Origin: Parafrankia sp. EUN1f
GTDB taxonomy: Bacteria; Actinomycetota; Actinomycetes; Frankiales; Frankiaceae
Direction of reading: 5' to 3'
Length of the DNA stretch: 64,000 nt
Assembly (NCBI RefSeq): GCF_000177675.1
Contig: NZ_ADGX01000012.1
Location: forward strand, 1 to 64,000
The notes beneath the pieces are model-generated. The model ran no database searches. It saw nothing but the letters and a program-made list of their open reading frames with translations, and had not been told where the DNA came from. Position numbers and translations under genes: made by a program. Shown in pieces: positions 17,490-59,684 of this stretch (within the stretch, counting starts at the first letter, position 1; each line of letters opens with the position of its first letter).

Positions 17490-17812
17490 CTGCTGGGCCG
17501 GTCGCGCGGTGGACAGACCAGCAGGTCCACCTCGCCGCGGACCGGCGGTGTCGGCCGTTGGCGTTCGTGCTGACCGAGGGCCAGACCGCGGACAGCCCGC
17601 AGTTCGTCGCCGTCCTGCGCAAGGTGCGGGTGCTGGGACCTGTCGGGCGTCCGCGTACCCGGCCTGGCGCGGTCGCCGGCGACAAGGCCTTCTCCTCGCG
17701 TGCCAACCGCGCCTACCTGCGTGGGCGTGGGATCAGGGCGGTCATCCCGGAGAAGGTCGACCAGGCCGCCCACCGCAGGAACAGGGGCCGGGCGGCCGGC
17801 CGGCTCTGACCA
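17490..17812 (+). mobile_element. IS5-family transposase fragment, frameshifted
   Basis: GRSRGGQTS... in one frame shifts to CRPLAFVLTEGQTADSPQFV in the next. It then reads VGRPRTRPGAVAGDKAFSSR, NRAYLRGRGIRAVIPEK and DQAAHRRNRGRA, the central DDE region of IS5/IS427-type transposases. Both ends are missing. Confidence 0.8.
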
Positions 17813-26780: not shown

Positions 26781-27443
26781 CTAGGAGCGCATGAGTTCTG
26801 GGCGCCAGTCCTCGGGGGCCTGGTGATGCAGGTCGACGTATGCCTGGGCGAGAACGGAGGGTTCGAATCGTTCTTCGCCGCCGCCGATGCCGCCGTCAAT
26901 GGTGACGACGGTTGCGTGCACGCCGGTGCCCGACAGTTCTGCTGCGAGGGTGTGGACGTAGGCACGCAGCGCCGTCTTCCCAACAGACAGGGAGGCGTAG
27001 GCCGGGTTGGGGGCGTAGGCGAGACCGCCGCCGGTGAACAGCAGGCTTCCGTGTCCCGGCAAGGCGGCCAGGACTGTCTCGGCGGCGACCTTGGCGCCGA
27101 GCACGTTGACGGCGAGGGAGTTCGCCCAGCCCGCGTCGTCGCGGTCGGTCGGGGTGTCGGGTCGCAGCAGCGCTGCGTTGTAGGCGAGGACCTCGGGCGC
27201 TCCGAGCTCGTTGATCGCGGTGTTGATCGCCGCGCGCAGCGAGTCCGGATCGGCGGCGTCGGCGGCGTAGCCGCGAACCGGCTGGTGCGCGGAGAGGGCG
27301 GAGAGCTCGGAGGTGTACTGGTCGAGGCGCTCCTTGTTGCGGGCGAGCAGCGCGACTGGATGGCCGGCTTCTGAGAAGGCGCGGGCCAGGGCGATGCCCA
27401 GGCCGGGGCCGACGCCGACGATGACTGCGATGCCTTTCGGCAT
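26781..27443 (-). CDS. SDR-family oxidoreductase
   Basis: 220 residues from ATG 27443, which has AGAAGGA upstream. The nucleotide-binding loop is VGVGPGLGIALARAFSEAG, with LARNKERL after strand 2, AYNAALLRPD, and a Tyr in NPAYASLSVGKTAL (Y-x4-K spacing, slightly atypical). It belongs to the short, 'YciK-like' SDRs. It is third in the leftward MFS-SDR-SDR operon. In this assembly it also reads in frame with the upstream SDR because of a base loss in a G5 run at 27587-27591. Confidence 0.75.
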   Translation of the reverse strand: MPKGIAVIVGVGPGLGIALARAFSEAGHPVALLARNKERLDQYTSELSALSAHQPVRGYAADAADPDSLRAAINTAINELGAPEVLAYNAALLRPDTPTDRDDAGWANSLAVNVLGAKVAAETVLAALPGHGSLLFTGGGLAYAPNPAYASLSVGKTALRAYVHTLAAELSGTGVHATVVTIDGGIGGGEERFEPSVLAQAYVDLHHQAPEDWRPELMRS

Positions 27444-27537
27444 GGTTCCTTCTTTCTGGATGGTGTTCAGGGGCTGTGCGGCTCCTGCGGGGATCCCGGG
27501 TCGACCTGACGGCCACGTGTGGGAATCGGCTTTCGGA

Positions 27538-28400
27538 CTAGGCAGGTGGCGAGGTGGTCTGGCTGAGTGCTTCGGCGAGCGGTGTCGGGGGCGGCCGATC
27601 AGCTGTGCGAGCGAGGTGGAACCTGTCTCCATCTCGCCTGCGGCGATGGAGGCATCCACCGCCGCGGCGAAGAGCGCCGCTCCCGAGCCCATGCCAGCCG
27701 CTTGGCGGTCTGTAACGAAGTCCGCTTCGCTCAGGTTCCGGTGCGCCACCGGTGTGCCGGTGACGGCGGTGACCTCGTCGGCGAGTTCGGCGAGGGAGAA
27801 CGACGGGCCACCGAGTTCGTAGATGCGCGATTCGTTGTCGTCGGAGGTGAGTACCGCTGCTGCCGCGGCGGCGAAGTCCGCGCGTGTGGCGGCTGAGATA
27901 CGTCCTTCGCCGGTGGCGCTGACCACTGCGCCGACGGCTGTGTAGGTGGGGATCTGGGAGGTGTAGAGCTCGGTGTAGAAGGCGTTGCGGAGCATGGTCG
28001 CGGGGATGCGGGTAGCGGCGATCAGCTTCTCGGTCGCGGCGTGCTCGTCGGCGAGCGGGTTGGAGCTGGTGTCGGCGTGCAGGATCGAGGTGTAGGCGAT
28101 GTGGCCGACGCCCGCGGCCACGGCGGCTTCGACCACATTCGCGTGGCGCATGACGGTGGCACCCACTCCGGGTGTTGAAATCAGCAGCAGGCGCTCCACC
28201 CCGTCGAGGGCTGAGTAATAGGCGGTCCGGTCGGTGTAGTCGGCATGCCGGACCGTGACGCCGCGCGCGGCGAAATCTACCACCTTCGCGGTGTTGCGGA
28301 CAATCGCGATGATATTCGCGGCGGGAATGCCGGTGGCGAGCAGGTTCTCGACGACGAGACGGCCCAGCTGGCCGGAAGCGCCGGTGACGGCGATAGGCAT
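27538..28400 (-). CDS. NmrA/QorB-type NAD(P)H-binding quinone oxidoreductase (frameshifted 3' end)
   Basis: About 286 residues. ATG 28400 gives MPIAVTGASGQLGRLVVENL, the atypical-SDR nucleotide motif, then VRHADYTDRTAYYSALDGV and LISTPG, as in QorB quinone reductases of TetR-controlled stress operons. As sequenced, the frame continues beyond the natural end and fuses to the next SDR (539 codons in all). Adding one base to the C5/G5 run at 27587-27591 restores a normal C-terminus, TPLAEALSQTTSPPA plus TAG at 27540-27538. The fusion is therefore either a real frameshift or a homopolymer error. It lies 45 bp after the MFS gene. Confidence 0.75.
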
Positions 28401-33212: not shown

Positions 33213-35453
33213 ATGGCACCTCCTCGCCGCTGCGAGCCTGTCGTGGTCCGGGGGATCTGTGGAGAGCGATGCGCTCCTCAACCGAATGTCCAGTGGGTTG
33301 CTGCGATGGTCCGCCAACGTCTCGTGGGGCCGAATGTGAGACGCGCGACGAAACTTCCTCTGGCCGAAGCGGCATTCGACGTGTTCCTGGGCATTCGTGG
33401 GGTCGAGCTTCTGGGAGAACTCGGCCATGCTCTTCGGCGATGCCAGGGACAGGGACGAGGGCATCCTCCGCGCCCTCTGAACGGAGCACAGATCAAGACT
33501 CGCCCAGCAGTCGCCGAGCATCCTCCCGGCCCTGTTACCGCCGTGCTTGCGATCGCCGGCATGTTGGCGGCTCTGCAGCAAACGATGGTCGTCCCGTTGG
33601 TGCACGAGCTGCCGACGATCCTCGGGGTTTCTCCGACCTCGGCGGCCTGGGCGGTGACGGCGACTCTGCTCAGCGGTGCGATTGCGACACCGATCATCTC
33701 TCGCCTCGCCGACATGGTCGGAAAGCGGCGCATGGTCGTGATCGCGCTCGTGACGAGCACCTCGGGATCGCTCCTGGTCGCCCTGAGCGGTGGCTCCTTC
33801 GCGCTCGTCCTCCTGGGCCGGACCTGTCAAGGCTTCGCAGCAGCACTGATCCCGGTCGGGATCAGTGTGATGCGAGACGTGCTTCCGAAGGAGCGGGTGG
33901 GTTTCGCCGTCGCCCTCATGAGTGCCACCCTCGGAATCGGTGGGGCCCTCGGCCTTTCTCTGTCCGGCGTTCTCTACGGACACCTCGGGTTCGCGTCGAT
34001 CTTCTGGGCGGCCGCGTTGCTCGGGGTCGTCCTGACCGTGGCCGTCCTGCTGCTGGTCCCGGAGTCTCTGGTGCGGACGCCCGGGCGCTTCGACCGCACG
34101 GGTGCGGTCCTGGTCAGCGTGACGCTGGCATCCCTGCTCCTGGCGGTCTCCAAGGGGAACGAATGGGGATGGTCTAGCGCGGTGGTACTCGGGCTCCTCG
34201 GGGTCGCCGGGCTCACCCTCGCAGTGTGGATCCCGTTCGAGTTGCGCGTCGGCGCTCCGATGGTGGACCTGCGCACCGCCGCGCGAAAGCCGGTCCTCCT
34301 CACCAATGCGGCTTCGCTGTGCGTGGCGTTCCCGCTGTACATCAACATGCTCGCCTCAAGCCAGCAGCTGCAGGAACCGACCGCCACCGGTTACGGCTTC
34401 GCGCTGTCGGTCACGGAAGCCGGGCTCGCCATGATGCCCTCCGGGCTGATCCTGGTGCTACTCTCCCCGCTGTCGGGCCGGCTCGTCACCCGCGTCGGTG
34501 GAAGAGGCACTCTTCTCCTGGGCGCCGGCATCATGGCGGCGGCCTATGTCTTGAGGGTGTTCCTGACGGGTTCCGTGACCGAGGTTGTCGTCGGTGCGTC
34601 CCTCGTGTCGGTCGGGACCGCTTTATCCTTCGCTGCCATGCCGACGCTCATCATGGCCCACGTTCCCATCACGGAGTCAGCGTCGGCGAACGGTCTGAAC
34701 TCGCTGATGCGAGCGCTCGGCGGCGCGGTGTCAAGCGCGTTCCTCGCCTCCGTCCTCGCCTCGATGACAATCGTCAGCGCGGGCACCACCGTGCCGTCGC
34801 TCGAGGCGTTCAGGCTCGTCTACTGGATCGCCGCGGGGGTCGCCCTCATGGCATTCGGACTCGCAGCCCTGATTCCCAGACGACTCGACGAAGTGCGGTC
34901 GACCGGGGTCTCCGGGGCAGGGGAGGAGATGGTCGTCCGCGGTCGCGTCCTCGCCGGCGGTGGTGCGTTGGCGCCCCGGGCAGCGGTCGTTACCGTCACC
35001 GGCCTGGGCGGCGAGCCGGTGGACTGGGCGAGGACGGACAACAACGGGCGGTACTCCGTGGCTGTCCCCGGGCCAGGTCGCTATCTGCTCGTGACCAACT
35101 CACGGGGGTGGGCACCTCACGCGGAGATCGTCGACCTCGTCGAGGACGACGATCCGCTCCAGGTGGTCTTGGACCGAGAGCTCGCTCTCACCGGTTACGT
35201 GGTGTGCGGCGGAGTCCCTGTCGGTCGGGCGACCGTGGTGCTCCATACCGGTCTGGGTGAGTTCAAGGCGGCCACGTCCACCGATGCGAACGGGCACTTC
35301 ACCTTCCACCTGCCCCCGTCGGGGCCCTATCTCCTGACCGCCGTGGTGGAAGGGGGCAGATCTGCTGGGACGGTGAAGACCGTGATCGGCTACTTGGCGG
35401 AGGATGTCACCATCGAGGTCTCGGCGTCAGGCGTCGGTCGGCCTGCGGAATAG
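33213..35453 (+). CDS. MFS transporter fused to two carboxypeptidase-regulatory-like domains
   Basis: A 14-helix MFS carrier (first helix near residue 107, VTAVLAIAGMLAALQQTM) extends to about residue 560. It is followed by a soluble tail of about 170 residues with two beta-sandwich repeats of the carboxypeptidase regulatory type (VVRGRVLAGGGALAP...DNNGRYSVAVPGPGRYLL; LTGYVVCGGVPV...DANGHFTFHLPPSGPYLL). The true start is uncertain: ATG 33213, ATG 33306 and GTG 33381 all lack a good ribosome site, and the first 100 residues look non-coding. It probably imports or exports the island's substrate; the tail may bind a polymer or partner. Confidence 0.75.
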   Translation: MAPPRRCEPVVVRGICGERCAPQPNVQWVAAMVRQRLVGPNVRRATKLPLAEAAFDVFLGIRGVELLGELGHALRRCQGQGRGHPPRPLNGAQIKTRPAVAEHPPGPVTAVLAIAGMLAALQQTMVVPLVHELPTILGVSPTSAAWAVTATLLSGAIATPIISRLADMVGKRRMVVIALVTSTSGSLLVALSGGSFALVLLGRTCQGFAAALIPVGISVMRDVLPKERVGFAVALMSATLGIGGALGLSLSGVLYGHLGFASIFWAAALLGVVLTVAVLLLVPESLVRTPGRFDRTGAVLVSVTLASLLLAVSKGNEWGWSSAVVLGLLGVAGLTLAVWIPFELRVGAPMVDLRTAARKPVLLTNAASLCVAFPLYINMLASSQQLQEPTATGYGFALSVTEAGLAMMPSGLILVLLSPLSGRLVTRVGGRGTLLLGAGIMAAAYVLRVFLTGSVTEVVVGASLVSVGTALSFAAMPTLIMAHVPITESASANGLNSLMRALGGAVSSAFLASVLASMTIVSAGTTVPSLEAFRLVYWIAAGVALMAFGLAALIPRRLDEVRSTGVSGAGEEMVVRGRVLAGGGALAPRAAVVTVTGLGGEPVDWARTDNNGRYSVAVPGPGRYLLVTNSRGWAPHAEIVDLVEDDDPLQVVLDRELALTGYVVCGGVPVGRATVVLHTGLGEFKAATSTDANGHFTFHLPPSGPYLLTAVVEGGRSAGTVKTVIGYLAEDVTIEVSASGVGRPAE

Positions 35454-39110: not shown

Positions 39111-39186
39111 AACCGTGCGTCCCGTCCCGCCGGACGCCCGCCCTCGCCACGAACCACCTCCACACAGGCGCACCTCCAGGAGAACC

Positions 39187-41925
39187 ATGTCGACGTTACT
39201 TCCGTTTATCTTCATCGGTCTGTCGACCGGTGCGGTCTACGGACTGGCCGGAGTCGGCCTGGTCCTGACCTATCGGACATCGGGCATCTTCAACTTCGCC
39301 CACGGTGCCCTGGCCACAGTGGCGGCGTACCTCTTCTACGACACAACCGTGCTGCACGGGTGGTCCCCGGTCTGGGCGGCCGCCTTGGCAGTGCTGGTGC
39401 TCGGGCCGCTCTTGGGCCTCTTCCTCGAGCTCATCGCGCGACGGATCCAGGGCGCGACGCTCGCGGTCCAGGTGGCCGCCACGGTCGGCCTGCTCCTCAT
39501 CGTGCAGGCCGCAGCACTGCTGCACTACGGGAGCATCATGCCCCGGGTCGTTCCGGAGTACTTCCCCGACGGCACGGTCGAGGTCTTCGGCGCCTTCCTG
39601 TCCTATGCCAACATCGTGACCTTCGTCGTGACGGCTGTGGCCGTCCTCGTCCTGAGCCTCTACCTGCGCTACGCCCGTCGCGGGATCGCGACGCTCGCGG
39701 TCGTCGACGACCCCGAGCTCCTGGCGCTGGCCGGGACCAACCCGGTGACCACCCGCCGCCTCGCCTGGATCATCGGGTCGACCCTCGCGGCCGGGTCGGG
39801 GGTCCTCCTCGCACCGCTCGTTCCCCTCGACCCCACCCGACTGACGCTGCTGGTCGTCTCGGCCTTCGGCGCCGCCGCCATCGGGATGTTCCGAAGCATG
39901 CCGATCACCTTCGTCGGCGGGCTGGGCATCGGAGTGCTGGCCGCGCTCTGCACGAAGTGGTTCACGAGCGGACCCCTTGCCGGCCTGGCAGGCGCCATCC
40001 CGTTCATCGTGCTGTTCGCGGTCCTGATCGCCTTCCCGAAGCGGAAGCTCGTGGCTCGTCCACAGGTGATCCCGCGAAGCCACCCGAGTTGGCGTGCCCC
40101 TGCCCGCTTCCAGCTCAGCCTGGCCGCGGTTGTCCTGGTCCTGCTCCTGGCGGTGCCCGGTTTCGTGGGCTTCAGCCTGATCCACTGGACCTCGGGCCTG
40201 GCTCTCACGACCGTGTTCCTCTCGCTGACCTTGCTCGTGCGGATGTCAGGTCAGGTCTCTCTCTGCCACGTCACGTTCATGGCGATCGGAGCTGCGGGGC
40301 TCTCGCACCTGACGCAGGGCCAAGGCCTGCCCTGGGGCCTGGCGCTCCTCCTGAGTGGCCTGGTCGCCGTGCCGGTGGGCGCGGTCCTGGCGATCCCCGC
40401 GATCCGTCTCGGAGGCATCTACCTCGCGCTGGCCACGTTCGGGTTCGGTGTGCTCGTGCAGAGCATGTTTTACACACAGGACTGGTTCTTCGGCACCCAG
40501 CCCGGAGGTGTCACCGTGGGGAGGCCGACCGCCGGTGGACTGGGCGACGACAAGCCTTTCTACTACCTGGTCCTGGGCATCACCCTCGCGTGCGCCCTGA
40601 TGGTGGTCGGTATCTCCCGCGGACGCCTCGGTCGGCTCCTCGGAGGTATGGCCGACTCGCCGTCAGCACTCGAGACCTCAGGCACGACGGTGAACATCAC
40701 ACGGGTCCTGGTGTTCTGTCTCTCGGCTTTCCTCGCTGCCATCGGCGGCGCGTTGTGGAGCGCGAACCTCGGAAGCGCATCCATCGGCGACTTCCCGCCG
40801 CTCCTGTCCCTCCAGTACTTCGCCCTCGTCATCATCCTGGTGGGCAGGACCCCCTGGGACGCGCTTCTCGCCGGTCTCCCGCTGGCGGTCATCCCCGCGT
40901 ACTTCCAGTCCGAATCGGTGACCAACATCTTCACCCTGGTCTTCGGCATCGGCGCTGTGCTCTACGGACTGACCGCCACCCAGGAGGTTGACAACTCCAG
41001 GCTGCAGTCGGCGATCGACCGTCTGGCCAGGCGGAAGGCACGGGTGCAGGAACCAGTCACTGCGGATGAGCGTGAGGCGCTCCTGGAGCAGGTCCGGGCC
41101 CCGGGCGGAGTCTTTCGCGCTCAGGACGTGCGCGTGACCTACGGCGGGGTCGTCGCCGTCGACGGCGTGAGCATCGAGGTCCCGACCGGACAGATCATCG
41201 GTCTGATCGGGCCCAACGGCGCGGGCAAGACGACGATGTTCAACGCCTGTTCGGGACTGATCAGCGCCGCCTCGGGCGAGATCAGCATGGACGATCGTGG
41301 TCTCTCCAAACTCAGCGTGGCCGGCCGTGCTCGTCAGGGCCTTGGGCGGACCTTCCAGCGGATGCAGCTCTTCGACTCGTTGACCGTTGCCCAGAACGTC
41401 GCCTTCGGCGCCGAGGGCGCCATGGCGGGCGCGAACCCCGTCCGCCACATCCTCAGCAGGCGGAGCGAGCGTCGACGGATGGAGGTCGCGACCGAGCACG
41501 CCCTGGAGCTCTGCGGGCTCGGGGACCTCCGTTCGGCCCATGTCGCGTCCCTGTCGACCGGGCAGCGCCGCCTGGTGGAGCTGGCCAGGTGTCTGGCCGG
41601 CGATTTCAGGATCCTCCTACTGGACGAGCCGTCCTCGGGTCTGGATCAGGCCGAGACCAAGGTCTTCGGCGACATCCTCCGACGGGTAGTGCGGGAGCGG
41701 AACGTCGGCGTCCTCCTCGTCGAGCACGACATGTCCCTGGTCCTGTCAATCTGCCAGAACATCTACGTCATCGACTTCGGGAAGCCCATCTTCACCGGTA
41801 CACCTCGCGAGGTCGCGACCTCACCCGTCGTGCGGTCGGTATACCTCGGTGAGACCGACTCAAGCCTCGTGGTCGAGGACGACAGCCGCCCGCTCGTCGA
41901 ACTCGGATCAGGAGAGCCCTCATGA
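39187..41925 (+). CDS. Fused LivH-LivM-LivG: two ABC permease domains plus ATPase in one chain
   Basis: 912 residues, ATG 39187 preceded by AGGAGA. Residues 1-290 are a LivH-type permease (GLSTGAVYGLAGVGLVLTYR; FNFAHGA). Residues 320-620 are a LivM-type permease (SGQVSLCHVTFMAIGA; AIRLGGIYLALATFGFG). After a linker, residues 640-900 form a LivG-type ATPase with Walker A GPNGAGKT (about 672), signature LSTGQRR and Walker B LLLDEPSSGLD. These are normally three separate proteins. Its stop overlaps the start of livF (ATGA). With the lipoprotein and LivF it makes a complete importer. Confidence 0.9.
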   Translation: MSTLLPFIFIGLSTGAVYGLAGVGLVLTYRTSGIFNFAHGALATVAAYLFYDTTVLHGWSPVWAAALAVLVLGPLLGLFLELIARRIQGATLAVQVAATVGLLLIVQAAALLHYGSIMPRVVPEYFPDGTVEVFGAFLSYANIVTFVVTAVAVLVLSLYLRYARRGIATLAVVDDPELLALAGTNPVTTRRLAWIIGSTLAAGSGVLLAPLVPLDPTRLTLLVVSAFGAAAIGMFRSMPITFVGGLGIGVLAALCTKWFTSGPLAGLAGAIPFIVLFAVLIAFPKRKLVARPQVIPRSHPSWRAPARFQLSLAAVVLVLLLAVPGFVGFSLIHWTSGLALTTVFLSLTLLVRMSGQVSLCHVTFMAIGAAGLSHLTQGQGLPWGLALLLSGLVAVPVGAVLAIPAIRLGGIYLALATFGFGVLVQSMFYTQDWFFGTQPGGVTVGRPTAGGLGDDKPFYYLVLGITLACALMVVGISRGRLGRLLGGMADSPSALETSGTTVNITRVLVFCLSAFLAAIGGALWSANLGSASIGDFPPLLSLQYFALVIILVGRTPWDALLAGLPLAVIPAYFQSESVTNIFTLVFGIGAVLYGLTATQEVDNSRLQSAIDRLARRKARVQEPVTADEREALLEQVRAPGGVFRAQDVRVTYGGVVAVDGVSIEVPTGQIIGLIGPNGAGKTTMFNACSGLISAASGEISMDDRGLSKLSVAGRARQGLGRTFQRMQLFDSLTVAQNVAFGAEGAMAGANPVRHILSRRSERRRMEVATEHALELCGLGDLRSAHVASLSTGQRRLVELARCLAGDFRILLLDEPSSGLDQAETKVFGDILRRVVRERNVGVLLVEHDMSLVLSICQNIYVIDFGKPIFTGTPREVATSPVVRSVYLGETDSSLVVEDDSRPLVELGSGEPS

Positions 41926-42693: not shown

Positions 42694-43662
42694 ATGACCC
42701 CCTCTCGCCCGCCGTTCGACCCCGAGCTTGAGCCGGTGGTACTAGCGTACTCGCGGCTCTTCCCCCGGCTAGGGCCAGACACGCTCACACAGTTACGCGC
42801 GCTCACCAGCGAAGGTGTCCCTGGCCAGGAGCCGATGGACTACACCGTCGGCGGGTCCGTCGTCGTCGAGGACCTCGCCATTGTGAGACCTGACGGGACC
42901 GAGCTGGTCGTGACCGTGCTGAGGCCGCGGGACGCGCCGCCCGACCTGCTTGGGATCTTGCACGTCCACGGCGGCGGCATGGTGATGGGCACGCGGATGT
43001 TCGGCGTAGATACCTACCTGCCCTACGTCGTCGAGGGCCATGCGGTCATCGTGACTGTGGAGTACCGGCTCGCGCCCGAGCACCCCGATCCCGCGCCTGT
43101 GGAGGACTGCTACGCAGCGCTGACCTGGATGGGCAAGGCTGCCGGAGACCTCGGCGTCGACGGCAGCCGGCTCATGGTGGTCGGCGCGAGCGCCGGCGGC
43201 GGGCTGGCGGCCGGAGCCGTGCTCATGGCTCGCGACCGCGGGTTCCCGGCAGTCAGTCACCAGATTCTGGACTGTCCCATGCTCGACGACCGGTTGCAAA
43301 CCCACAGCAGTCGGATGCTCGATAACGATGGGCCGTGGGACCAGCACGACAACATCTTCGGCTGGAATGCTCTGCTGGGAGAGCGGCGTGGCGGGCGAGA
43401 CGTCAGCTACTATGCCGCGCCCGCGCGCGCGGAGGAACTGTCGGGACTACCGCGCACATACCTCTCCTGCGGATCCGTCGACAGCTTCCGGGACGAGGTG
43501 CTCGATTTCGCATTAAAGCTGTCCCAGGCCGGCGTCCTGGTCGACCTGCACATCTGGGGTGGGGCATTCCACGGGTTCGACCTGGCTGCCCAGAACACCG
43601 CAGTCGCACAAGCATCAATGCGGACTCGCGACGAGTTCGTCCGACGAATCATACGAGAGTGA
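42694..43662 (+). CDS. HSL-family carboxylesterase (alpha/beta hydrolase)
   Basis: 322 residues from ATG 42694 with AGGAG seven bases upstream. The oxyanion motif HGGG is at 92-95, the nucleophile elbow GASAGG at 164-169 (Ser166), an acidic residue lies in the DSFRDE segment, and the catalytic His is in GAFHGFD: the hormone-sensitive-lipase group acting on short acyl esters. It is a clear paralogue of the product at 54034-55031. As last gene of the hydrolase-importer operon it probably hydrolyses the imported ester or lactone. An IS30 remnant begins within about 20 bp after it. Confidence 0.85.
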   Translation: MTPSRPPFDPELEPVVLAYSRLFPRLGPDTLTQLRALTSEGVPGQEPMDYTVGGSVVVEDLAIVRPDGTELVVTVLRPRDAPPDLLGILHVHGGGMVMGTRMFGVDTYLPYVVEGHAVIVTVEYRLAPEHPDPAPVEDCYAALTWMGKAAGDLGVDGSRLMVVGASAGGGLAAGAVLMARDRGFPAVSHQILDCPMLDDRLQTHSSRMLDNDGPWDQHDNIFGWNALLGERRGGRDVSYYAAPARAEELSGLPRTYLSCGSVDSFRDEVLDFALKLSQAGVLVDLHIWGGAFHGFDLAAQNTAVAQASMRTRDEFVRRIIRE

Positions 43663-43679
43663 TTGTGAGTATCGGTGGC

Positions 43680-44588
43680 AGCCCGCGGTGGCAGCGTGAT
43701 TGGCCATCTCCTGGCCCTGGTCCCAGGTCAGTGCGGCGCAGCGTGAGTGGCGACCGGCTCATCACGTCGACCGTTGCCGCCTCGACGTCGTCGGCCCCAT
43801 GGTTGTTCGGTAGATGCAGGAGCATGACGTAGCCAGTCAAACGCTCCACGAGCGTGCCGATCGCGGACCGGTTCTCCGCACCGGTGATGAGGTCGCCTTC
43901 CCAATGTCCCGGCACGGCGCGGTCCAAGACCTCGGACGGTCGCTGCGCGATGCCGACCATGCCAGCGAGGCGCCCTCTCGTTCTGTGGTCCGTCGGGTCT
44001 TGCGCAGGGTCCGGCCAGTGCGCAGGCGCTGAACCAACTCCCGGCGCAGGCCACCGCGGCCGGGCATGTAGAGGCTGCGGTAGATCGTCTCGTGGCTCAC
44101 ACGCATGTGCGGGTCATCGGGAAACAGAACGACGAGCCGCCTACTGACCTGCTCAAAGCTGTCCTTGGCGTCCAACCGATTCTGCACATGGTCGCGAAGC
44201 CGCTCGTCCAGCGCGAGCACCCTCACCTTCGTCGCCGGGCACGCTGATCCGCCAGGGCCTGAGCCACCGAGGCCCGATATCCCGACTTCCGCCGAACAGT
44301 CCCGCGCCGCAGCTCCCGGCTCACCGTCAACGGCGAACGCCCCAGCCCACGCGCGATCACGCACTCCCTCACCTGCCGCCCGCCGGCAACTGATCTCTTC
44401 ACGTTCCTGGAAGGAAGACGACGCACGTCAGGCGAGGTCTCGCCGGTCGGGAAAGGCTCGGGCATCACCCCGCCAACCTGCCGGAACCACCACCAAGCGA
44501 CGGTGACCGACACTCCGACCAAACCCGCCGCCTCAGCGACCACCATCCCCGACCGCACCCCAGCCCAGAACTCACGCTGGACAGACAT
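43680..44588 (-). mobile_element. IS30-family transposase pseudogene (three frames)
   Basis: An N-terminal HTH (MSVQREFWAGVRSGMVVAEA; GLGRSPLTVSRELRRG) is followed in a second frame by DSFEQVSRRLVVLFPDDPHM and RVSHETIYRSLYMPGRGGLR. In a third frame come PGHWEGDLITGAENRSAIGT and LVERLTGYVMLLHLPNNHGA. These are in the right order for an IS30 transposase, including the first catalytic Asp (EGDLI), but broken by two frameshifts and cut off before the Glu. Confidence 0.8.
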
Positions 44589-48286: not shown

Positions 48287-48377
48287 AAATACTGCAGCGG
48301 TGCGTCGGCGTTCCACGTGGACCGACAGGGGTTGCTGTGCGGGCCGTCCATCATCGACGAGCAAGGGCTGGTGTGTC

Positions 48378-49676
48378 ATGAGTTGGGACTTCGACACCGA
48401 TCCCGAGTTTCAGCACAAGCTCGACTGGGCCGACGAGTTCGTCCGTAGTGAGGTGGAGCCCCTGGACTTCGTGCTGGGTGATCCGTATGACAAGGGTGAT
48501 GAGCGGGCCATGCGGATCGTCCGCCCGCTCCAGCAGCGGGTCAAGGACGCGAAGCTATGGGCCTGCCACCTCGAGCCCGAGCTCGGTGGGGAGGGCTACG
48601 GCCAGGTCAAGCTAGCGCTGCTGAACGAGATCCTCGGTCGCTCGCGATGGGCTCCCTCGATCTTCGGCTGTCAGGCGCCTGACTCGGGCAATGCTGAGAT
48701 CCTGGCTCGCTACGGCACGCCTGAGCAGAAGGACCGTTACCTGACCAAGCTCCTTGCTGGCGAAATCGGGTCCTGCTACTCGATGACCGAGCCGCATGCC
48801 GGCTCCGACCCCAGTCTCTTCACCACGACCGCGGTCCGCGACGGTGACGAGTGGGTCATCTCAGGGGAGAAGTGGTTCTCCTCGTTCGCCCGCTACGCCA
48901 GCTTCTACATCGTCATGGCGGTCACCGACACCGCACTCGGGACCCGCGGTGGCATGTCCATGTTCATCGTGCCTGCGGACACTCCGGGGCTGCGCATCAT
49001 TCGTAACGTCGGTTTGGGCACCGAGAGCGAGGAGACAGCGAGCCACGCCTACGTCTCCTATGACCAGGTCCGAGTCCCGTCGGATCACGTCCTCGGCAAG
49101 GAGGGTGCTGCTTTCGAGATCGCGCAGGCGCGGCTGGGCGGGGGGCGCATCCATCACGCCATGCGCACGATCGCCCAGGTCCGCCGAGCCCTGGACATGA
49201 TGCTCGAGCGGGCGGTCTCGCGTCACGTTCGAGCAGGGACTCTCGGAAGCCAGCAGCTCACCCAGCAGATGATCGCTGAGAGCTGGATCCAGCTCGAGCA
49301 GTTCCGCCTGTTCGTCCTGCGCACCGCCTGGTTGATCGACAAGCACCAGGACTACCAGCGCGTCCGGAAGGACATCGCCGCAGTCAAGGCGGCGATGCCG
49401 GGGGTCTACTACGACGTCGTACGTCGGTCCATGCACCTGCACGGCGCGCTCGGTCTCTCCAACGAGATGCCCTTCTCCTCCATGCTCATCAGTGCGGAGT
49501 CGATGTCCCTGGCGGACGGGCCGACGGAGATCCACCAGATGACCGTAGCCAAGCAGCTCCTGCGAGATGTCAAGCCGGCCGACGGTCTCTTCCCGACTGA
49601 GCACATTCCGACCCGTCGTGCGGCTGCCCGGCGGATCCTCGCCGAGCGCCTCGAGCGCGAGGCGGCCGCGCTGTGA
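48378..49676 (+). CDS. Acyl-CoA dehydrogenase (ACAD10/11-like context)
   Basis: 432 residues from ATG 48378, the start of family similarity (MSWDFDTDPEFQHKLDWADE). It has the FAD/substrate motif CYSMTEPHAGSDPS, the beta-domain GDEWVISGEKWFSS, and the C-terminal helical domain with LHGALGLSNEMP and DGPTEIHQMTVAKQLL. FAD-dependent oxidation of acyl-CoA, probably with electron-transfer flavoprotein. The next genes are an SDR and an APH-type kinase, each overlapping by four bases. This trio is the arrangement of enzymes that phosphorylate and rearrange 4-hydroxyacyl-CoA (ACAD10/11, LvaC), so that role is inferred. Confidence 0.85.
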   Translation: MSWDFDTDPEFQHKLDWADEFVRSEVEPLDFVLGDPYDKGDERAMRIVRPLQQRVKDAKLWACHLEPELGGEGYGQVKLALLNEILGRSRWAPSIFGCQAPDSGNAEILARYGTPEQKDRYLTKLLAGEIGSCYSMTEPHAGSDPSLFTTTAVRDGDEWVISGEKWFSSFARYASFYIVMAVTDTALGTRGGMSMFIVPADTPGLRIIRNVGLGTESEETASHAYVSYDQVRVPSDHVLGKEGAAFEIAQARLGGGRIHHAMRTIAQVRRALDMMLERAVSRHVRAGTLGSQQLTQQMIAESWIQLEQFRLFVLRTAWLIDKHQDYQRVRKDIAAVKAAMPGVYYDVVRRSMHLHGALGLSNEMPFSSMLISAESMSLADGPTEIHQMTVAKQLLRDVKPADGLFPTEHIPTRRAAARRILAERLEREAAAL

Positions 49677-50440: not shown

Positions 50441-51531
50441 TCTACAGCCCTCCGCGCGTCGTCGTCGCGAAGCTCACGAGCTGGCTGAACCTTCAGGGCG
50501 TCGGTTCCGGCCCAGTGAGCGGACTGACGGTGCTGGCTGGCGGCACCCAGAACCTGTTGGTGCGCTTCAGCCGGGACGGCCATGACTACGTGCTGCGGAT
50601 GCCGCCCGGGCACCCGCGCCCCAACAGCGACGCCACCATGGTGCGAGAGGCCTCGATCCTCGCCGGGCTCACCGGCTCGGTGGTCCCGCACCCTCGGCTC
50701 GTCGCCCTCTGCGAGGACTTGGACGTCTTCGGCTGCTGCTTCTTCGTCATGGAGGCGGTGGACGGTTACAACGCCATGTCGGAGGTGCCCCAACGGTTCC
50801 GGGAAGACCCTGAGCTCCAGCTGCGGATGGGCCTGTCGTTCGTAGACGCGCTGGCAGCGTTGGGACGGGTGGACCCGGTGGCAGCCGGCATCGCGCATCT
50901 TGGGAGAGCCGAGGGATGGCTCGAGCGTCAGGTCGCGCGGTGGCGACGTCAGCTCGACTCCTACGGCGAGTTCGATGCCTGGCCCGGTCCTGACCAACTC
51001 GGCGACGTCACCGCTCTGGGTCGCTGGCTCGAGGAGCGGGTGCCCCGTCGCTGGCGGCCGGGAGTGATCCACGGTGACTTTCACCTGGGTAACGTGCTGT
51101 TCAGCCGGTCCGCGCCCGAGGTGGCCGCCGTTCTGGACTGGGAGCTCGCCACCATCGGAGACCCGCTGCTGGACCTCGGTCACCTGCTGGCCACGTGGCC
51201 CGGCCCGGGCGGTCCCGGGCGTATCCCGCCGGCCGCACCGCTGCCCGGGCTACCGGGCCCCGCGGCCATCCTGGAGCGCTACGCGACCGGCACGGACCGG
51301 GACCTCTCGGAGATCAGCTGGTACCAGGCCCTCGCCTGTTACCGACTCGCCATCCTGCTGGAGGGCAGCCACGCGCGGGCCGCGGCCGGTCGTGCGCCGG
51401 CCGACATCGGAGCCAAGCTGCACACTGCCGCAGTGACGTTGGTCGAACAGGGACTAAGGCTGGCAACAGGAGAGACGGCAGCGCCGCTCCCGAGCAGTGA
51501 TGACGCGCGAGGCACCCTGCGGACTCTGTGA
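50437..51531 (+). CDS. Aminoglycoside-phosphotransferase-fold kinase (ACAD10/LvaA-like)
   Basis: 364 residues, GTG start overlapping the SDR stop. The kinase fold has VLRMPPGHPRPNSDATMVREASILAGL at the N-lobe (positively charged beta-3/helix C region), catalytic loop VIHGDFHLGNVLF and metal-binding VLDWELATIGDPLLDLG. In this neighbourhood (acyl-CoA dehydrogenase, CoA ligase) the family phosphorylates the hydroxyl of 4-hydroxyacyl-CoA, as in human ACAD10/11 and Pseudomonas LvaA. Antibiotic resistance is unlikely. Operon overlaps argue that it works with the upstream dehydrogenase. Confidence 0.85.
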   Translation: MIYSPPRVVVAKLTSWLNLQGVGSGPVSGLTVLAGGTQNLLVRFSRDGHDYVLRMPPGHPRPNSDATMVREASILAGLTGSVVPHPRLVALCEDLDVFGCCFFVMEAVDGYNAMSEVPQRFREDPELQLRMGLSFVDALAALGRVDPVAAGIAHLGRAEGWLERQVARWRRQLDSYGEFDAWPGPDQLGDVTALGRWLEERVPRRWRPGVIHGDFHLGNVLFSRSAPEVAAVLDWELATIGDPLLDLGHLLATWPGPGGPGRIPPAAPLPGLPGPAAILERYATGTDRDLSEISWYQALACYRLAILLEGSHARAAAGRAPADIGAKLHTAAVTLVEQGLRLATGETAAPLPSSDDARGTLRTL

Positions 51532-51604
51532 ACGGATCCAGCGACCGCCGCTGACCGCAGAGCTCCCGGGCGGACAACTGCGCGGGACGAGGAGGATGAG
51601 ACAG

Positions 51605-53167
51605 ATGTATCCGGGCAAGTACGCCGTTGAGCGCGCTGACCAACCGTGCTTCATCATGGCATCGACGGGCGAGGCTGTGACGTACGCCGAGTACGAGGCG
51701 CGGACCAACCGACTCGCTCACGTTCTGCGCAACGCCGGGCTCGGGTTCCGCGACCACTACACGGTCTTCATGGAGAACAACGCGAGGTACCTCGAGTCCT
51801 GTGGCGCCGGGGAGCGGACGGGTTTATACGTCACGGCCGCGAACTCCCACCTGACTGCGGACGAGCTCGCCTACATCCTCGAGAACAGCGAGTCCAAGGC
51901 CCTCATCGCCTCGGCGTCGACGTTGCCCGCGGCAGCAGCTGCCGCGGCACAGGTGCCGGCAGTCGAGCTGCTCCTCGTCGTCGACGAGGAAGGTTCGCTG
52001 TCGCCGTCCGACCGACACGGCTTCCTCGACTTCCTCGAGACCACCGCGACGCAGCCGGGCACCCCGGTCTCCGACGAGCGGCGCGGCCGCGTGATGCTCT
52101 ACTCCTCAGGCACCACGGGTCGTCCCAAGGGCATTCTCTACGACCTGCCGGAGGTCCCTCCGGAGACCATGCTCTCGCCACAGGAGTTCCTCGCGTCGCT
52201 GTGGGGGTTCCGGGAGGGAGTCACCTACCTCTCGCCTGCTCCGCTCTACCATTCCGCGCCCCAGGGCTCGGTCGGCCTGACCATCCGGACGGGCGGCACG
52301 GCGATCATCATGGAGCGGTTCGACGCCACGGAGTACCTCCGGCTCGTCGAGCGTTACCGCGTGACGCACTCGCAGCTGGTGCCGACGATGTTCGTCCGGA
52401 TGCTGAAGCTGCCCGACGAGGTCCGGCTGTCCTTCGACGTCTCGTCACTGGAGGTTGCCGTGCACTCGGCGGCACCATGCCCGGTGCCCATCAAAGAACA
52501 GATGATCGAATGGTGGGGCCCGATCCTCGTGGAGTACTACGGCGCCACCGAGGCGATGGGCTTCGCGGCGTGCAACTCAGAGGAGTGGCTCGCGCACCGA
52601 GGTACCGTGGGGCGCGTCGTCTCCGGTGACCTGAGGGTCTGTGACGACCTGCTGAACGAGGTGCCTGCCGGAATGCCGGGAACGTTGTGGTTCGTGACCG
52701 ACAGGCCCGTGCGGTACTTCAACGACCACGAGCGGAGCCAGGAGGCCCTCTCGCCCGACGGACGGATGTGCACCGTCGGAGACGTGGGCTACCTCGACGA
52801 GGACGGCTTCCTCTACCTCACCGACCGCGCGACCTTCATGATCATATCGGGTGGGGTGAACACCTATCCGCAGGAGACGGAGAACCTGCTCATCACCCAC
52901 CCCAAGGTCGCAGACGCCGCCGTGTTCGGCATCCCGCACCCGGACCTGGGCGAGGAGGTCAAGGCGGCTGTGGAGCTGATGCCCGGGAGCACTCCCGGTC
53001 CCGAGCTCGAGGCGGAGCTGATCCAGTTCTGTCAGGAGCACCTGGCGAGGCACAAGTGTCCCCGGTCCATCGACTTCGAGGACAAGCTCCCGCGCCTCGC
53101 GACCGGGAAGCTGTACAAGCGTCAGCTGCGCGACAAGTACTGGGCCGACGCCGCCGGCCGGATCTGA
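51605..53167 (+). CDS. AMP-forming acyl-CoA ligase
   Basis: 520 residues from ATG 51605; GGAGG at 51591-51595 is at ideal spacing, while the longer frame from 51497 overlaps the kinase gene. Motifs: LYSSGTTGRPKGIL, YYGATEAMG, GDVGYLDEDGFLYLTDR and LPRLATGKLYKR with the catalytic Lys. It resembles long/medium-chain or bile-acid-type CoA ligases that begin YPGKYA. It should activate the pathway acid to its CoA ester. It is fourth in the operator-4 operon. Confidence 0.85.
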   Translation: MYPGKYAVERADQPCFIMASTGEAVTYAEYEARTNRLAHVLRNAGLGFRDHYTVFMENNARYLESCGAGERTGLYVTAANSHLTADELAYILENSESKALIASASTLPAAAAAAAQVPAVELLLVVDEEGSLSPSDRHGFLDFLETTATQPGTPVSDERRGRVMLYSSGTTGRPKGILYDLPEVPPETMLSPQEFLASLWGFREGVTYLSPAPLYHSAPQGSVGLTIRTGGTAIIMERFDATEYLRLVERYRVTHSQLVPTMFVRMLKLPDEVRLSFDVSSLEVAVHSAAPCPVPIKEQMIEWWGPILVEYYGATEAMGFAACNSEEWLAHRGTVGRVVSGDLRVCDDLLNEVPAGMPGTLWFVTDRPVRYFNDHERSQEALSPDGRMCTVGDVGYLDEDGFLYLTDRATFMIISGGVNTYPQETENLLITHPKVADAAVFGIPHPDLGEEVKAAVELMPGSTPGPELEAELIQFCQEHLARHKCPRSIDFEDKLPRLATGKLYKRQLRDKYWADAAGRI

Positions 53168-55213: not shown

Positions 55214-55237
55214 GCATTGTAGAGGAGATGGTGCGCG

Positions 55238-56029
55238 TTGGTGCAACTGGCTGATTATCAGGACAGGTACGAGTTCATCAGACTGACCAGGGATGAGAGC
55301 GGGATCCTCGAGGTCCTGCTGCACACGGACGGCGACTCGCTCCGCTGGGGTGCTTCAGCTCACCGCGAGTTCACGAGCGTGTTCCGCAACATCGCGCTCG
55401 ACCGGGGCAACCGTGTGGTGATCATCGCCGGGACCGGTCACGAGTTCCTGGGGCCGCGCGCAGATGCTCCTGGCGGCAGGACCACCTCGGTCTCGGTCGG
55501 CATGAGCTTCGCCGAGGAGTACGAGATGTGGGAGAAGGACGGCTTCATCGACCAGCCGGAGATGAACAACGCCTTGCTCGACATTCAGGTCCCGGTGATC
55601 GCCGCCGTGAACGGTCCGGCCCGGCGCCACTGTGAGGTTCCGCTCTACTCGGACATCGTCATCGCCTCGGAGGACGCCTCCTTCGAGGACTCCGCGCACT
55701 TCCACCTGCAGGACACGGTCCCCGGTGACGGTTGCCACATCTGGATGACCATGTTGCTCGGCATAAACCGTGCCCGCGCCTACATGCTCTCTGGCGACGT
55801 CATTACGGCCGACCAGGCACTCAGCTGGGGACTGGTGAAGGAGGTCGTGCCGAAGGAGCGGGTCCTGGAGAGGGCGTGGGAGGTCGCACGCGAGATCGCG
55901 GAGAAATCCGACTCCACCCTCCGGTTCACACGGGCGATCATGGTCCACCCGCTCAAGAAGCAGACCCTCGAGCTGCTGCGCATGGGCGTCGTGTTCGAGG
56001 CGCTCGGCGCCCTCGGGCGTAACGCGTGA
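55238..56029 (+). CDS. Crotonase-fold beta-diketone hydrolase (6-oxocamphor-hydrolase-like)
   Basis: 263 residues from TTG 55238 (or GTG 55241) with AGAGGAG upstream. It lacks the two glutamates of enoyl-CoA hydratases. Instead, by eye, it follows 6-oxocamphor hydrolase: YEFIRLTRDESGILEVLLHT, the His in GASAHREF (42), PVIAAVNGP, YSDIVIASEDASFEDSAHF (His154) and VPGDGCHIW (Asp164). That enzyme cleaves a C-C bond of a cyclic 1,3-diketone by retro-Claisen reaction. Similar chemistry on an alicyclic intermediate is inferred. It heads an operon with a mycofactocin-type SDR and an AtuA-like gene. Confidence 0.7.
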   Translation: MVQLADYQDRYEFIRLTRDESGILEVLLHTDGDSLRWGASAHREFTSVFRNIALDRGNRVVIIAGTGHEFLGPRADAPGGRTTSVSVGMSFAEEYEMWEKDGFIDQPEMNNALLDIQVPVIAAVNGPARRHCEVPLYSDIVIASEDASFEDSAHFHLQDTVPGDGCHIWMTMLLGINRARAYMLSGDVITADQALSWGLVKEVVPKERVLERAWEVAREIAEKSDSTLRFTRAIMVHPLKKQTLELLRMGVVFEALGALGRNA

Positions 56030-56101: not shown

Positions 56102-56920
56102 ATGGCCGGACGAATGGACGGCAAGGTCGTCTTCATCACGGGCGCGGCCCGAGGCATGGGCCGTGCCCACGCGGTCCGCCTCGCCGAAGAGGGTGCCGAC
56201 ATCATCGCTGTCGACATCTGCGAGTCGATCCCGACGGTCACGCAGTACCCCGGAGCCACGCCGGAGGACCTCAAGGAGACGGTGGCGCTGGTCGAGGCGC
56301 GCGGGCGGCGCATCGTCGCCGAGCACGCGGATGTGCGAGACCTCGGCCGGCTGCAGGAGGTCGTGAAGGCCGGCGTCTCGCAGCTGGGTCGGCTCGACGG
56401 GGTGGTTGCCAACGCGGGCATCGGGATCAACGCTGCCTGGGACAAGTTCACCGAGCAACAGTTCCGCGACGTCATCGACATCAATCTTGTCGGGGTGTGG
56501 AACACGGTCATGGCGTCGGCGCCCCTGCTGGTCGAGGCCGGTGAGGGCGGTTCGATCGTGCTGATCTCGTCGGCCGGAGGCCTGAAGGGCTGCCCGTTCA
56601 ACCTGCCGTACAGCGCTGCGAAGTTCGGCGTGACCGGACTGGGCAAGACCCTCGCCGCCGAGCTGGGCAAGCACCGCATCCGGGTGAACACCGTGCACCC
56701 GGGACCGGTGGACACCGAGATGGCGCGCCACATCATGCCTTACATGGCCGACATCGCCGCCGGGAACGAGGGGCTGCTGTCGACGTTCGCCCACTTCATC
56801 CCGGGCGACGTCATGGACCCGGTGCAGATCTCGCACGCGGTGGTCTACCTGTTGTCGGACGAGTCTGTGTGGACCACCGCGTCTGCCATGGCCATCGACG
56901 GCGGAGTCACCGCCTTCTGA
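56102..56920 (+). CDS. Mycofactocin-type SDR (carveol-dehydrogenase-like)
   Basis: 272 residues, ATG after AGGAGAAGGAG. It matches the actinobacterial subfamily in which NAD is held non-exchangeably and mycofactocin is the electron carrier: FITGAARGMGRAHAVRLAEE, GADIIAVDICESI, an insertion PGATPEDLKETVALVEA, catalytic Ser in LISSAGG, YSAAK, and a late FAHFIPGDVMDP. Family members oxidise secondary alcohols such as carveol. With the diketone hydrolase upstream, it may make the ketone that is cleaved. No mycofactocin biosynthesis genes are in the window. Confidence 0.8.
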   Translation: MAGRMDGKVVFITGAARGMGRAHAVRLAEEGADIIAVDICESIPTVTQYPGATPEDLKETVALVEARGRRIVAEHADVRDLGRLQEVVKAGVSQLGRLDGVVANAGIGINAAWDKFTEQQFRDVIDINLVGVWNTVMASAPLLVEAGEGGSIVLISSAGGLKGCPFNLPYSAAKFGVTGLGKTLAAELGKHRIRVNTVHPGPVDTEMARHIMPYMADIAAGNEGLLSTFAHFIPGDVMDPVQISHAVVYLLSDESVWTTASAMAIDGGVTAF

Positions 56921-56969: not shown

Positions 56970-58739
56970 ATGAGCTCCACCGGCAGGACCCCGATCAGGG
57001 TGGCCAACTTCTCCGGTTATCTCGGCGACCGTCGCTCGGCGATCGACGAGGTCATGGCAGGTGACCCGGTCGACGTCCTCATGGGTGACTACCTAGCCGA
57101 GCTCACGATGGCGGCACTCGCCAACGACTACCGTGAGAATCCCGAGCACGCCTACGTCGCCTACTTCGTGCAGCAGCTGCGCCCCCATCTCGCCGCCGTG
57201 GCGGAGCGCGGCATGAAGGTGGTGACGAACGCCGGCGGGCTGAGCCCGGCCTCCTTGGCCGAGAAACTGCGAGCCCTCGTCCGCGAGGAGGGACTCGACC
57301 TCACGGTGGCGCACGTCGCGGGAGACTCGATCCTCGACCGGATCGACGACCTGCAGGCCGCCGGGCACAGGCTCGAGCATCTCGACACGGGCGCGCCTGT
57401 CAAGGACTGGGGGGCCGAGCCTCGTGCGGCCAACGCCTACCTGGGAGCCTTCGGAATCGCGACCGCTCTGCGGAACGGCGCCGACATCGTCGTGACAGGC
57501 CGCGTCACAGACGCGTCGCTGACCGTGGGACCCGCTGCCTGGTGGCACGGCTGGAGCCCGGACGACTGGTCTCCCCTGGCAGGTGCCGTCGTCGCCGGTC
57601 ACGTCATCGAGTGCGGGGCTCAGGCGACGGGCGGCAACTTCTCCGGCTTCCAGAAGGTGCCCGGGGTCCGACATCCAGGATTCCCCATCGCCGAGATCGC
57701 GGCCGACGGCAGCAGCGTGATCACCAAGCACCGCCGTGACGGCGGCACCGTCACGGTGGACACCGTGACCGCTCAGCTCGTGTACGAGATCCAGGGCCCT
57801 ATTTATCTCAACCCGGATGTGACCGTGCACCTCGACACCGTCGAGCTGACCCAGCTCGGCCCGGACCGCGTCGGTATCGGCCCCGTGGCCGGGACCCCAC
57901 CGCCGCGGACCACCAAGATCGCACTGTTCGCCCAGACGGGATGGCAGACCTCCCAGACTGTCTTCTGCACCGGACCTGACGTCGGGGCGAAGGTCGCCTT
58001 GCTCCGATCCCAGCTGCACGACGCACTCGGCGAGGTTGATGTCCTGGACGTGAGCCCCGTCGGAGCCGCGGTCGAGAACCCCTCCACCCAGTGGGAAGCC
58101 ACCGTCCCGATCCGGGTCATGGCGATCGCCGAACGGCGCGAGGCGCTGCGCTCCTTCGCCGGAGTCCTTTTCGGCCTCTATCTCCAGAGTTTCCCCGGTC
58201 TACACCTCGACGGAGGCGCGCAGCGGCTCGGACCGCCGTGGCCGAGAATGGGCTACTGGCCGGGCCTGGTGGACGTCGAGGTCCTCGACCACGTCGCGGT
58301 CCTCGAGGACGGGAGCGTGGTCGAGGCACCGCGTCCCTCGCGATACGCCGAGCCTGACGAGATCGCGCAGCCCGAACACCCGGAGCCTCCGCGGGCGGAC
58401 GCAGACGGCGCCCAGCTGCCGCTGGGCACGCTCGCCCACGCCCGGTCCGGTGACAAGGGGTCGGACTCCAACCTCGGGGTGTGGGTCACGGACAGAGCGG
58501 ACTGGCCCTGGCTGCGCTCGACCCTGTCCACCGAGGCTCTCCGGGCCCTCCTGCCCGAGACCCGCGACCTGAGGATCATCCGCCACGAGCTGCCGCGCCT
58601 CAACGCCGTGCACTTCGTCGTGAAGGGACTGCTCGGCACAGAGACTTCACCGAACGTGCGCATCGACCACCAGGGGAAGTCGCTGGGGGAGTACCTCCGC
58701 GCGAAGCACGTCGCCATCCCGGCGAGGGGCCTCGCCTGA
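56970..58739 (+). CDS. AtuA-like protein (DUF1446, acyclic terpene utilisation family)
   Basis: 589 residues. The N-terminal 450 residues form the DUF1446/AtuA domain (IRVANFSGYLGDRRSA; DVLMGDYLAELTMAALA; VTNAGGLSP; VTGRVTDASLTVGPAAWW; ECGAQATGGNFSGF). A C-terminal ferredoxin-fold-like domain of about 100 residues follows (LPLGTLAHARSGDKGSDSNLGVWV). AtuA is required for citronellol/geraniol catabolism in Pseudomonas, but its exact reaction is not well defined. The length matches fused AtuA proteins. It is third in the operator-5 operon and points towards isoprenoid or branched acid degradation. Confidence 0.85.
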   Translation: MSSTGRTPIRVANFSGYLGDRRSAIDEVMAGDPVDVLMGDYLAELTMAALANDYRENPEHAYVAYFVQQLRPHLAAVAERGMKVVTNAGGLSPASLAEKLRALVREEGLDLTVAHVAGDSILDRIDDLQAAGHRLEHLDTGAPVKDWGAEPRAANAYLGAFGIATALRNGADIVVTGRVTDASLTVGPAAWWHGWSPDDWSPLAGAVVAGHVIECGAQATGGNFSGFQKVPGVRHPGFPIAEIAADGSSVITKHRRDGGTVTVDTVTAQLVYEIQGPIYLNPDVTVHLDTVELTQLGPDRVGIGPVAGTPPPRTTKIALFAQTGWQTSQTVFCTGPDVGAKVALLRSQLHDALGEVDVLDVSPVGAAVENPSTQWEATVPIRVMAIAERREALRSFAGVLFGLYLQSFPGLHLDGGAQRLGPPWPRMGYWPGLVDVEVLDHVAVLEDGSVVEAPRPSRYAEPDEIAQPEHPEPPRADADGAQLPLGTLAHARSGDKGSDSNLGVWVTDRADWPWLRSTLSTEALRALLPETRDLRIIRHELPRLNAVHFVVKGLLGTETSPNVRIDHQGKSLGEYLRAKHVAIPARGLA

Positions 58740-58931: not shown

Positions 58932-59684
58932 TCAGCGACCGACCCACTGCGGCTCGCGCTTCTCGAGGAAGGCTTGGACGCCCTCCCTGCGATCGGCGCT
59001 GGCGAGGATCGCGGACAGGGCTTCTGCGGTGGCTGCCCATCCAGCCTCGTCGGTGGCGCCGACGACCTGCTCGACCGCCTTCAGCGTCTCGCCGACCGCG
59101 AAGGGCGAGTTTCGGCAGATCTGCTCGGCAAGCACCAGAGCTCCCTCGAGTGCCGTGCCGTCGTCGACGACCTCGGAGACCAGGCCGAGCTCATGTGCGC
59201 GCGTCGCCGACAAGGGCTGGCCGGTCAGGAGCATCTGCTTGGCGATATTGAGTGGCAGCGGACGCTGAGCGCGGAACAGGGCGCCACAGTTGGCGATCAC
59301 GCCCCGGCTGACCTCCGGCAGGCCGAACCGCGCGGAGCGGCCGGCGACGACGAGGTCGCAGGACAACACGATCTCGAAGCCGCCGCCCAGAGCGATCCCG
59401 TCGACTGCCGCGACGAGCGGCGTGCTGCGGCGGCGCTTGACGACGCCGTAGTTGCCGCCTCGCTCGGTCGGTGTCCCGGGGCCCCCCTTGAGGTCCGTGC
59501 CGGCGCAGAACATGTCGGGACCGCCCGTGAGGACTCCGCACCACAGCTCGGGGTCGTCCTCGAGAGTGTTGAGCGCCGCGTCCAGCTCCGCGGTCATCGC
59601 CGCGTCGACGGCGTTCCGCTTGTCGGGACGATCCATCCGGATCACGAGCACGCGACCTCGGCGCTCGGTCGTGACGCGATGCAT
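58932..59684 (-). CDS. Enoyl-CoA hydratase/isomerase
   Basis: 250 residues from ATG 59684. FCAGTDLKGG and ALGGGFEIVLSCD form the oxyanion hole; both acid/base Glu positions are present (GGGFE, GLPEVSRG), so a hydratase is likely. It ends EKREPQW like the 23724 product. It is divergent from an F420-type oxidoreductase with an island operator in the 85-bp gap. It is convergent with the AtuA gene; 58740-58931 holds no gene. Confidence 0.85.
   Translation of the reverse strand: MHRVTTERRGRVLVIRMDRPDKRNAVDAAMTAELDAALNTLEDDPELWCGVLTGGPDMFCAGTDLKGGPGTPTERGGNYGVVKRRRSTPLVAAVDGIALGGGFEIVLSCDLVVAGRSARFGLPEVSRGVIANCGALFRAQRPLPLNIAKQMLLTGQPLSATRAHELGLVSEVVDDGTALEGALVLAEQICRNSPFAVGETLKAVEQVVGATDEAGWAATAEALSAILASADRREGVQAFLEKREPQWVGR

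Follow-up and report, generated by a model that had tools for sequence, protein, structure and literature searches.

A predicted β-diketone hydrolase of the OCH/ABDH crotonase family beside a mycofactocin-coupled dehydrogenase in Parafrankia sp. EUN1f

Camphor breakdown in Rhodococcus proceeds by hydroxylation, oxidation to a diketone and hydrolysis. The residue roles in 6-oxocamphor hydrolase (OCH; Rhodococcus; PDB 1o8u, 1szo) are taken from established knowledge and from the title of the H122A structure entry. For ABDH of Anabaena (alr4455; PDB 2j5g, 2j5s), structural comparison gives H43, H144, D153 and E243 as the catalytic residues, and enzymes of the diketone-hydrolase type place a His at the superposed site of hydratase Glu164 (PMC3584854). 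A His-Asp-Glu-His set was also behind others' prediction of diketone hydrolase activity for the mycobacterial EchA15-type crotonases (PMC3584854). Crotonases that break C–C bonds in CoA-thioester ring ketones exist as well, such as EchA20, which acts in steroid ring D opening (PMC6678751).

The window analysed here is a 64,000-nucleotide stretch of contig NZ_ADGX01000012.1 of Parafrankia sp. EUN1f, and its crotonase of interest is listed with related features in Table 1. The ORF is a real gene, because its codon-position GC (0.65/0.42/0.88) is gene-like and orthologues occur at 90% (Nocardia aurantia), 70% (Arthrobacter sp. OV608) and 64% (actinobacterium G031) identity. It starts with a TTG codon, at the equivalent of which the Nocardia aurantia orthologue (locus L030) has ATG. 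Automatic annotation would make it an enoyl-CoA hydratase, because the general Pfam family ECH_1 is the sole domain match and, among the NCBIfam models shown, none reaches its cut-off. Most plasmid-borne relatives in a plasmid search, all below 60% identity to the query, are likewise named enoyl-CoA hydratase/isomerase family protein.

Table 1. Features of the crotonase locus and of comparable loci (window positions unless a locus is named)
Feature	Position	Strand	Basis
Predicted CoA-independent β-diketone (C–C) hydrolase, OCH/ABDH-type crotonase, 263 aa	55238..56029	+	Homology, residues, tree, predicted fold
Putative ribosome binding site GGAGA (likely)	55224..55228	+	Read from sequence; GGAG about 10 bases 5' of TTG
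His42 = OCH His45 / ABDH catalytic His	55361..55363	+	Alignment (75/79 relatives); ABDH role from PMC3584854
Active-site loop, residues 69-98, extended by some 10-12 residues relative to OCH/ABDH; OCH F82/L84 replaced	55442..55531	+	Alignment, model
Arg130, clade marker beside catalytic His131, register of hydratase oxyanion-hole glycine	55625..55627	+	31/32 sampled members of the 33-row clade, 0/47 others
His131 = OCH His122	55628..55630	+	Alignment; 79/79 relatives
Glu133, register of hydratase Glu144, kept	55634..55636	+	Alignment; 76/79 relatives
His154 = OCH His145, replacing hydratase Glu164	55697..55699	+	Alignment, 78/79 relatives; PMC3584854 tables 4-5
Asp164 = OCH Asp154	55727..55729	+	Alignment; 79/79 relatives
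Glu254 = OCH Glu244	55997..55999	+	Alignment; 79/79 relatives
Mycofactocin-coupled SDR (TIGR03971, carveol dehydrogenase type), proposed diketone supplier	56102..56920	+	Profile, insertion, linkage
AtuA-family protein, third gene of co-directional run	56970..58739	+	Pfam; 76% in Nocardia aurantia
Acyl-CoA dehydrogenase, likely candidate for a downstream step	48300..49676	+	86% orthologue beside Nocardia aurantia hydrolase
Acyl-CoA ligase, FadD4-like (below FadD4 model cut-off), candidate acid activator	51497..53167	+	Profile search
Mycobacterial OCH-type gene + P450 + TIGR03971 SDR loci	L082:9920-15245, L091:9989-16787, L093:9989-15265, L100:9989-14452		

Sequence, profile, predicted structure, active-site alignment and tree together support membership of the OCH/ABDH family and not of the acyl-CoA-binding crotonases. 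Against solved structures, phmmer gave E values of 4.8e-53 for OCH (about 41–44% identity) and 4.6e-49 for ABDH (about 38–40%), and 3.3e-16 for the next crotonase, a hydratase. A profile of 79 relatives scored OCH at 367 bits and ABDH at 351 bits, followed by EchA15 at 138 bits; the EchA15-type crotonases (3qk8, 3q1t, 7m3w; about 22–25% identity) belong to the closest groups beyond the family. The relatives were sought with a pattern spanning the VPVIxAVNGP stretch only, so the catalytic positions were not directly selected for, although the set was cut to the 80 most similar sequences.

The five-residue catalytic set (H42, H131, H154, D164 and E254) is complete in the alignment to OCH, and OCH W40 corresponds to W37; ABDH has its catalytic His, His, Asp and Glu in common with the query. 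The earlier note, working by eye, had placed His42, His154 and Asp164 in the OCH pattern and made this depend on the second His and the Glu of the diketone hydrolases; the alignment agrees on the three and supplies the other two as His131 and Glu254. EchA15-type crotonases share part of this set, but without an equivalent of His131. The same note took the OCH-type residues to stand in place of the hydratase glutamates, which is right for one of the two. The Glu164-type residue of the canonical pair (rat E144, E164) is replaced by His154, whereas the Glu144 register, six residues before the conserved Asp, keeps a glutamate (E133), as it does in OCH (E124) and ABDH. Both glutamates are present in a canonical crotonase within the window (58932-59684), and the hydratase-type GGG stretch that precedes Glu reads RRH in the query.

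The predicted fold leads to the same placement. An AlphaFold2 model built on the 79-row alignment reached pLDDT 93.1 and pTM 0.91, confidence dropping only at residues ~80–90 (pLDDT ~65), and OCH and ABDH chains filled Foldseek ranks 1–12. The superposition on OCH proposed by the earlier note gave, in VIA-align 2, Z 37.6 and an rmsd of 1.3 Å over 247 residues, followed by ABDH at Z 36.2; all other crotonases listed were at or below 29.8. As modelled, the fold is thus closest to OCH/ABDH. In a tree from a quick search, with the thin outgroup of eight canonical crotonases of the host genome, 94 OCH-type sequences including the query split from that outgroup at support 100, and the grouping with acyl-CoA-binding crotonases that the earlier note had named as contrary evidence does not appear. 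An ordinary enoyl-CoA hydratase/isomerase, the identity automatic annotation would give, is therefore highly improbable: it would account for the ECH_1 match and the retained E133, but His154 occupies the Glu164 site, no NCBIfam hydratase model shown is at cut-off, and tree and structure place the protein elsewhere. A canonical hydratase identity was rejected on residues, structure and tree.

A closer competitor is a C–C hydrolase with the same bond chemistry acting on a CoA-bound ring ketone, in the manner of EchA20 or BadI. Acyl-CoA ligases, an acyl-CoA dehydrogenase and a canonical crotonase in the neighbourhood would suit such an enzyme, and its kind has precedent in EchA20. We nevertheless regard it as unlikely: the closest solved relatives by a wide margin are OCH and ABDH, which are described as CoA-independent, and RRH replaces GGG before the Glu, while EchA20 and BadI lie outside the tree sample.

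Within the OCH/ABDH family, the query is not a direct orthologue of OCH, a relationship that the tree ruled out. Together with the Nocardia aurantia, Arthrobacter sp. OV608 and G031 proteins it forms a compact, long-stemmed clade, nested in a 33-row clade (support 97) of otherwise mostly proteobacterial and Chloroflexota sequences; OCH and ABDH fall in other clades. Solved structures were found for OCH and ABDH only, none of them in the query's branch, and this branch is uncharacterised. It is marked by Arg130, where OCH has Asn121 and ABDH Leu, and the query further differs by a long loop over the pocket; the loop of OCH carrying F82/L84 is ~12 residues shorter, and that of ABDH is also shorter. 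The stretch from residue 67 to 115 measures 47–49 residues in the query clade (four members) versus 36–42 in most relatives; ten further sequences, a distinct clade of mycobacteria among them, have 50. These features (the longer loop, the loss of OCH F82/L84 and Arg130 beside a catalytic His) could also mean that the OCH-type fold here serves a diverged substrate, such as a polar or acyclic β-diketone or another β-keto compound, with the neighbouring SDR not the supplier. We hold this to be distinctly unlikely, since every catalytic residue is kept and an alcohol-oxidising SDR is linked in three genomes.

OCH-type relatives occur in Actinomycetota, Pseudomonadota, Chloroflexota, Cyanobacteriota and others. 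No orthologue of the crotonase is present in the other five genomes of the genus, two of which carry 40% relatives from another clade, and in a phylum sample of 396 genomes only a single genome apart from that of the host attains E 1e-70. This sparse distribution, with the 90% identity to the Nocardia protein, suggests that the gene may have been acquired by horizontal transfer. Within the same class, a genome of 2.7 Mb (G001) contains three divergent OCH-type genes (L025, L028, L029) at 35–39% identity to the query.

The gene directly 3' of the crotonase, after a 72-base gap, was described in the earlier note as an alcohol dehydrogenase-type SDR that could supply the ketone. It is an SDR in that position, but not a generic one: it scores 337.4 bits against TIGR03971 (cut-off 300), and its best named solved relatives are mycobacterial carveol dehydrogenases of that family (3tsc, 3uve, 3oec). 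Compared with the window's other SDRs it carries an insertion of ~16 residues near the NAD site, which it has in common with carveol dehydrogenases and other TIGR03971 SDRs and which is a feature of the mycofactocin-coupled family (PMC5264612). MftC is encoded in the genome (G000:C339; 658 bits in a profile search). By score, insertion and the presence of MftC, the protein belongs to the mycofactocin-coupled SDRs; mycofactocin would be its electron acceptor. Unlike the known carveol dehydrogenases, it is paired with a diketone-hydrolase-type crotonase, and chance adjacency is unlikely because only nine TIGR03971-type SDRs were counted in the 9.35 Mb genome.

This pairing recurs, which, with the carveol-dehydrogenase type of the SDR, strengthens its proposed role as ketone supplier. 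In Nocardia aurantia, hydrolase and SDR orthologue (88%) are adjacent, and in G031 the SDR orthologue (78%) lies ~12.5 kb from the hydrolase, with another TIGR03971 SDR 2.4 kb away; other SDRs in these two genomes are at most 52% identical to the query's neighbour. Here the crotonase, the SDR and the AtuA-family gene run co-directionally, with 49 bases between the latter two. Close to the Nocardia aurantia hydrolase are found the acyl-CoA dehydrogenase and AtuA orthologues (Table 1), an acetyl-CoA-synthetase-like ligase (71%) and a CocE/S15-type hydrolase (78%).

The best explanation, which we consider probable, is a CoA-independent β-diketone hydrolase of the OCH/ABDH branch, with the neighbouring SDR making the diketone and acyl-CoA enzymes degrading the acid. 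Homology, the complete catalytic residue set, the predicted fold and the SDR linkage support it; from these we infer the reaction, the step order and a terpenoid-like substrate class, the last loosely suggested by the SDR type and by AtuA. The mycofactocin-coupled SDR would most likely oxidise a β-hydroxyketone to the 1,3-diketone. In the hydrolase, His154-Asp164 would polarise a water molecule, with His42, His131 and Glu254 surrounding the substrate, and the water would attack one of the two carbonyls of a 1,3-diketone that would be no thioester and is probably cyclic. By retro-Claisen cleavage the C–C bond between the carbonyls would then break and a keto acid be released without CoA. A nearby acyl-CoA ligase could activate the acid for β-oxidation, for which an acyl-CoA dehydrogenase and a hydratase are encoded nearby. 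Counting against this explanation are the distance to OCH and ABDH as nearest characterised enzymes (only 40–44% identity, other clades), the differing and weakly modelled substrate loop, the CoA pathways to which the surrounding genes belong, the lack of a P450 among those window genes that were put through Pfam, and the Arthrobacter OV608 genome, in which the hydrolase is present and no SDR orthologue was found.

A P450 does occur near other members of the family (6/40 flanks observed versus 0.9–1.1 expected). In Arthrobacter OV608 a set of P450, 2Fe-2S ferredoxin and reductase lies 6–9 kb from the hydrolase, this P450 being one of only three found in the genome. Its extension to the host pathway was rejected, as its best match in the host shares just 35% identity. 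Four genomes of nontuberculous mycobacteria have a P450 and an adjoining TIGR03971 SDR within 2–5 kb of an OCH-type gene; being related, these loci are counted as a single event. The excess of P450 genes across the family and the mycobacterial P450–SDR pairs agree with the order of steps in camphor breakdown: hydroxylation, then oxidation to a diketone, then hydrolysis. More tentatively, and with somewhat less than even confidence, the Arg130/long-loop clade may represent separate diketone hydrolases for a non-camphor substrate, paired with mycofactocin-dependent alcohol dehydrogenases, in which alcohol oxidation through bound NAD and mycofactocin to a 1,3-diketone would precede C–C hydrolysis; a second clade, in mycobacteria, shows the same hydrolase–SDR pairing with a P450 added.

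The assignment is a sound annotation correction and adds a new branch to a small characterised family; it is not a new kind of enzyme. The residue signature sets OCH/ABDH-type proteins apart from those rightly carrying enoyl-CoA hydratase/isomerase names. To our knowledge, most mycofactocin-dependent dehydrogenases are not characterised, and the linked SDR offers a concrete two-step pathway and a hint at their physiological substrates.

Several other features were noted in the window. A 539-aa ORF (26781-28400, −) combines an NmrA-like half with an SDR half, either as a fusion or as a start-site artefact. An MFS transporter ORF (33213-35453, +) carries a carboxypeptidase-regulatory-like domain at its C-terminus, and a 936-aa ORF (39115-41925, +) joins two branched-chain permease domains to an ABC ATPase and is flanked by genes for a binding protein and a further ATPase. 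Short transposase-like fragments, recognised by eye near catabolic genes (43649-43960, −; 17558-17809, +), are consistent with a mobile region.
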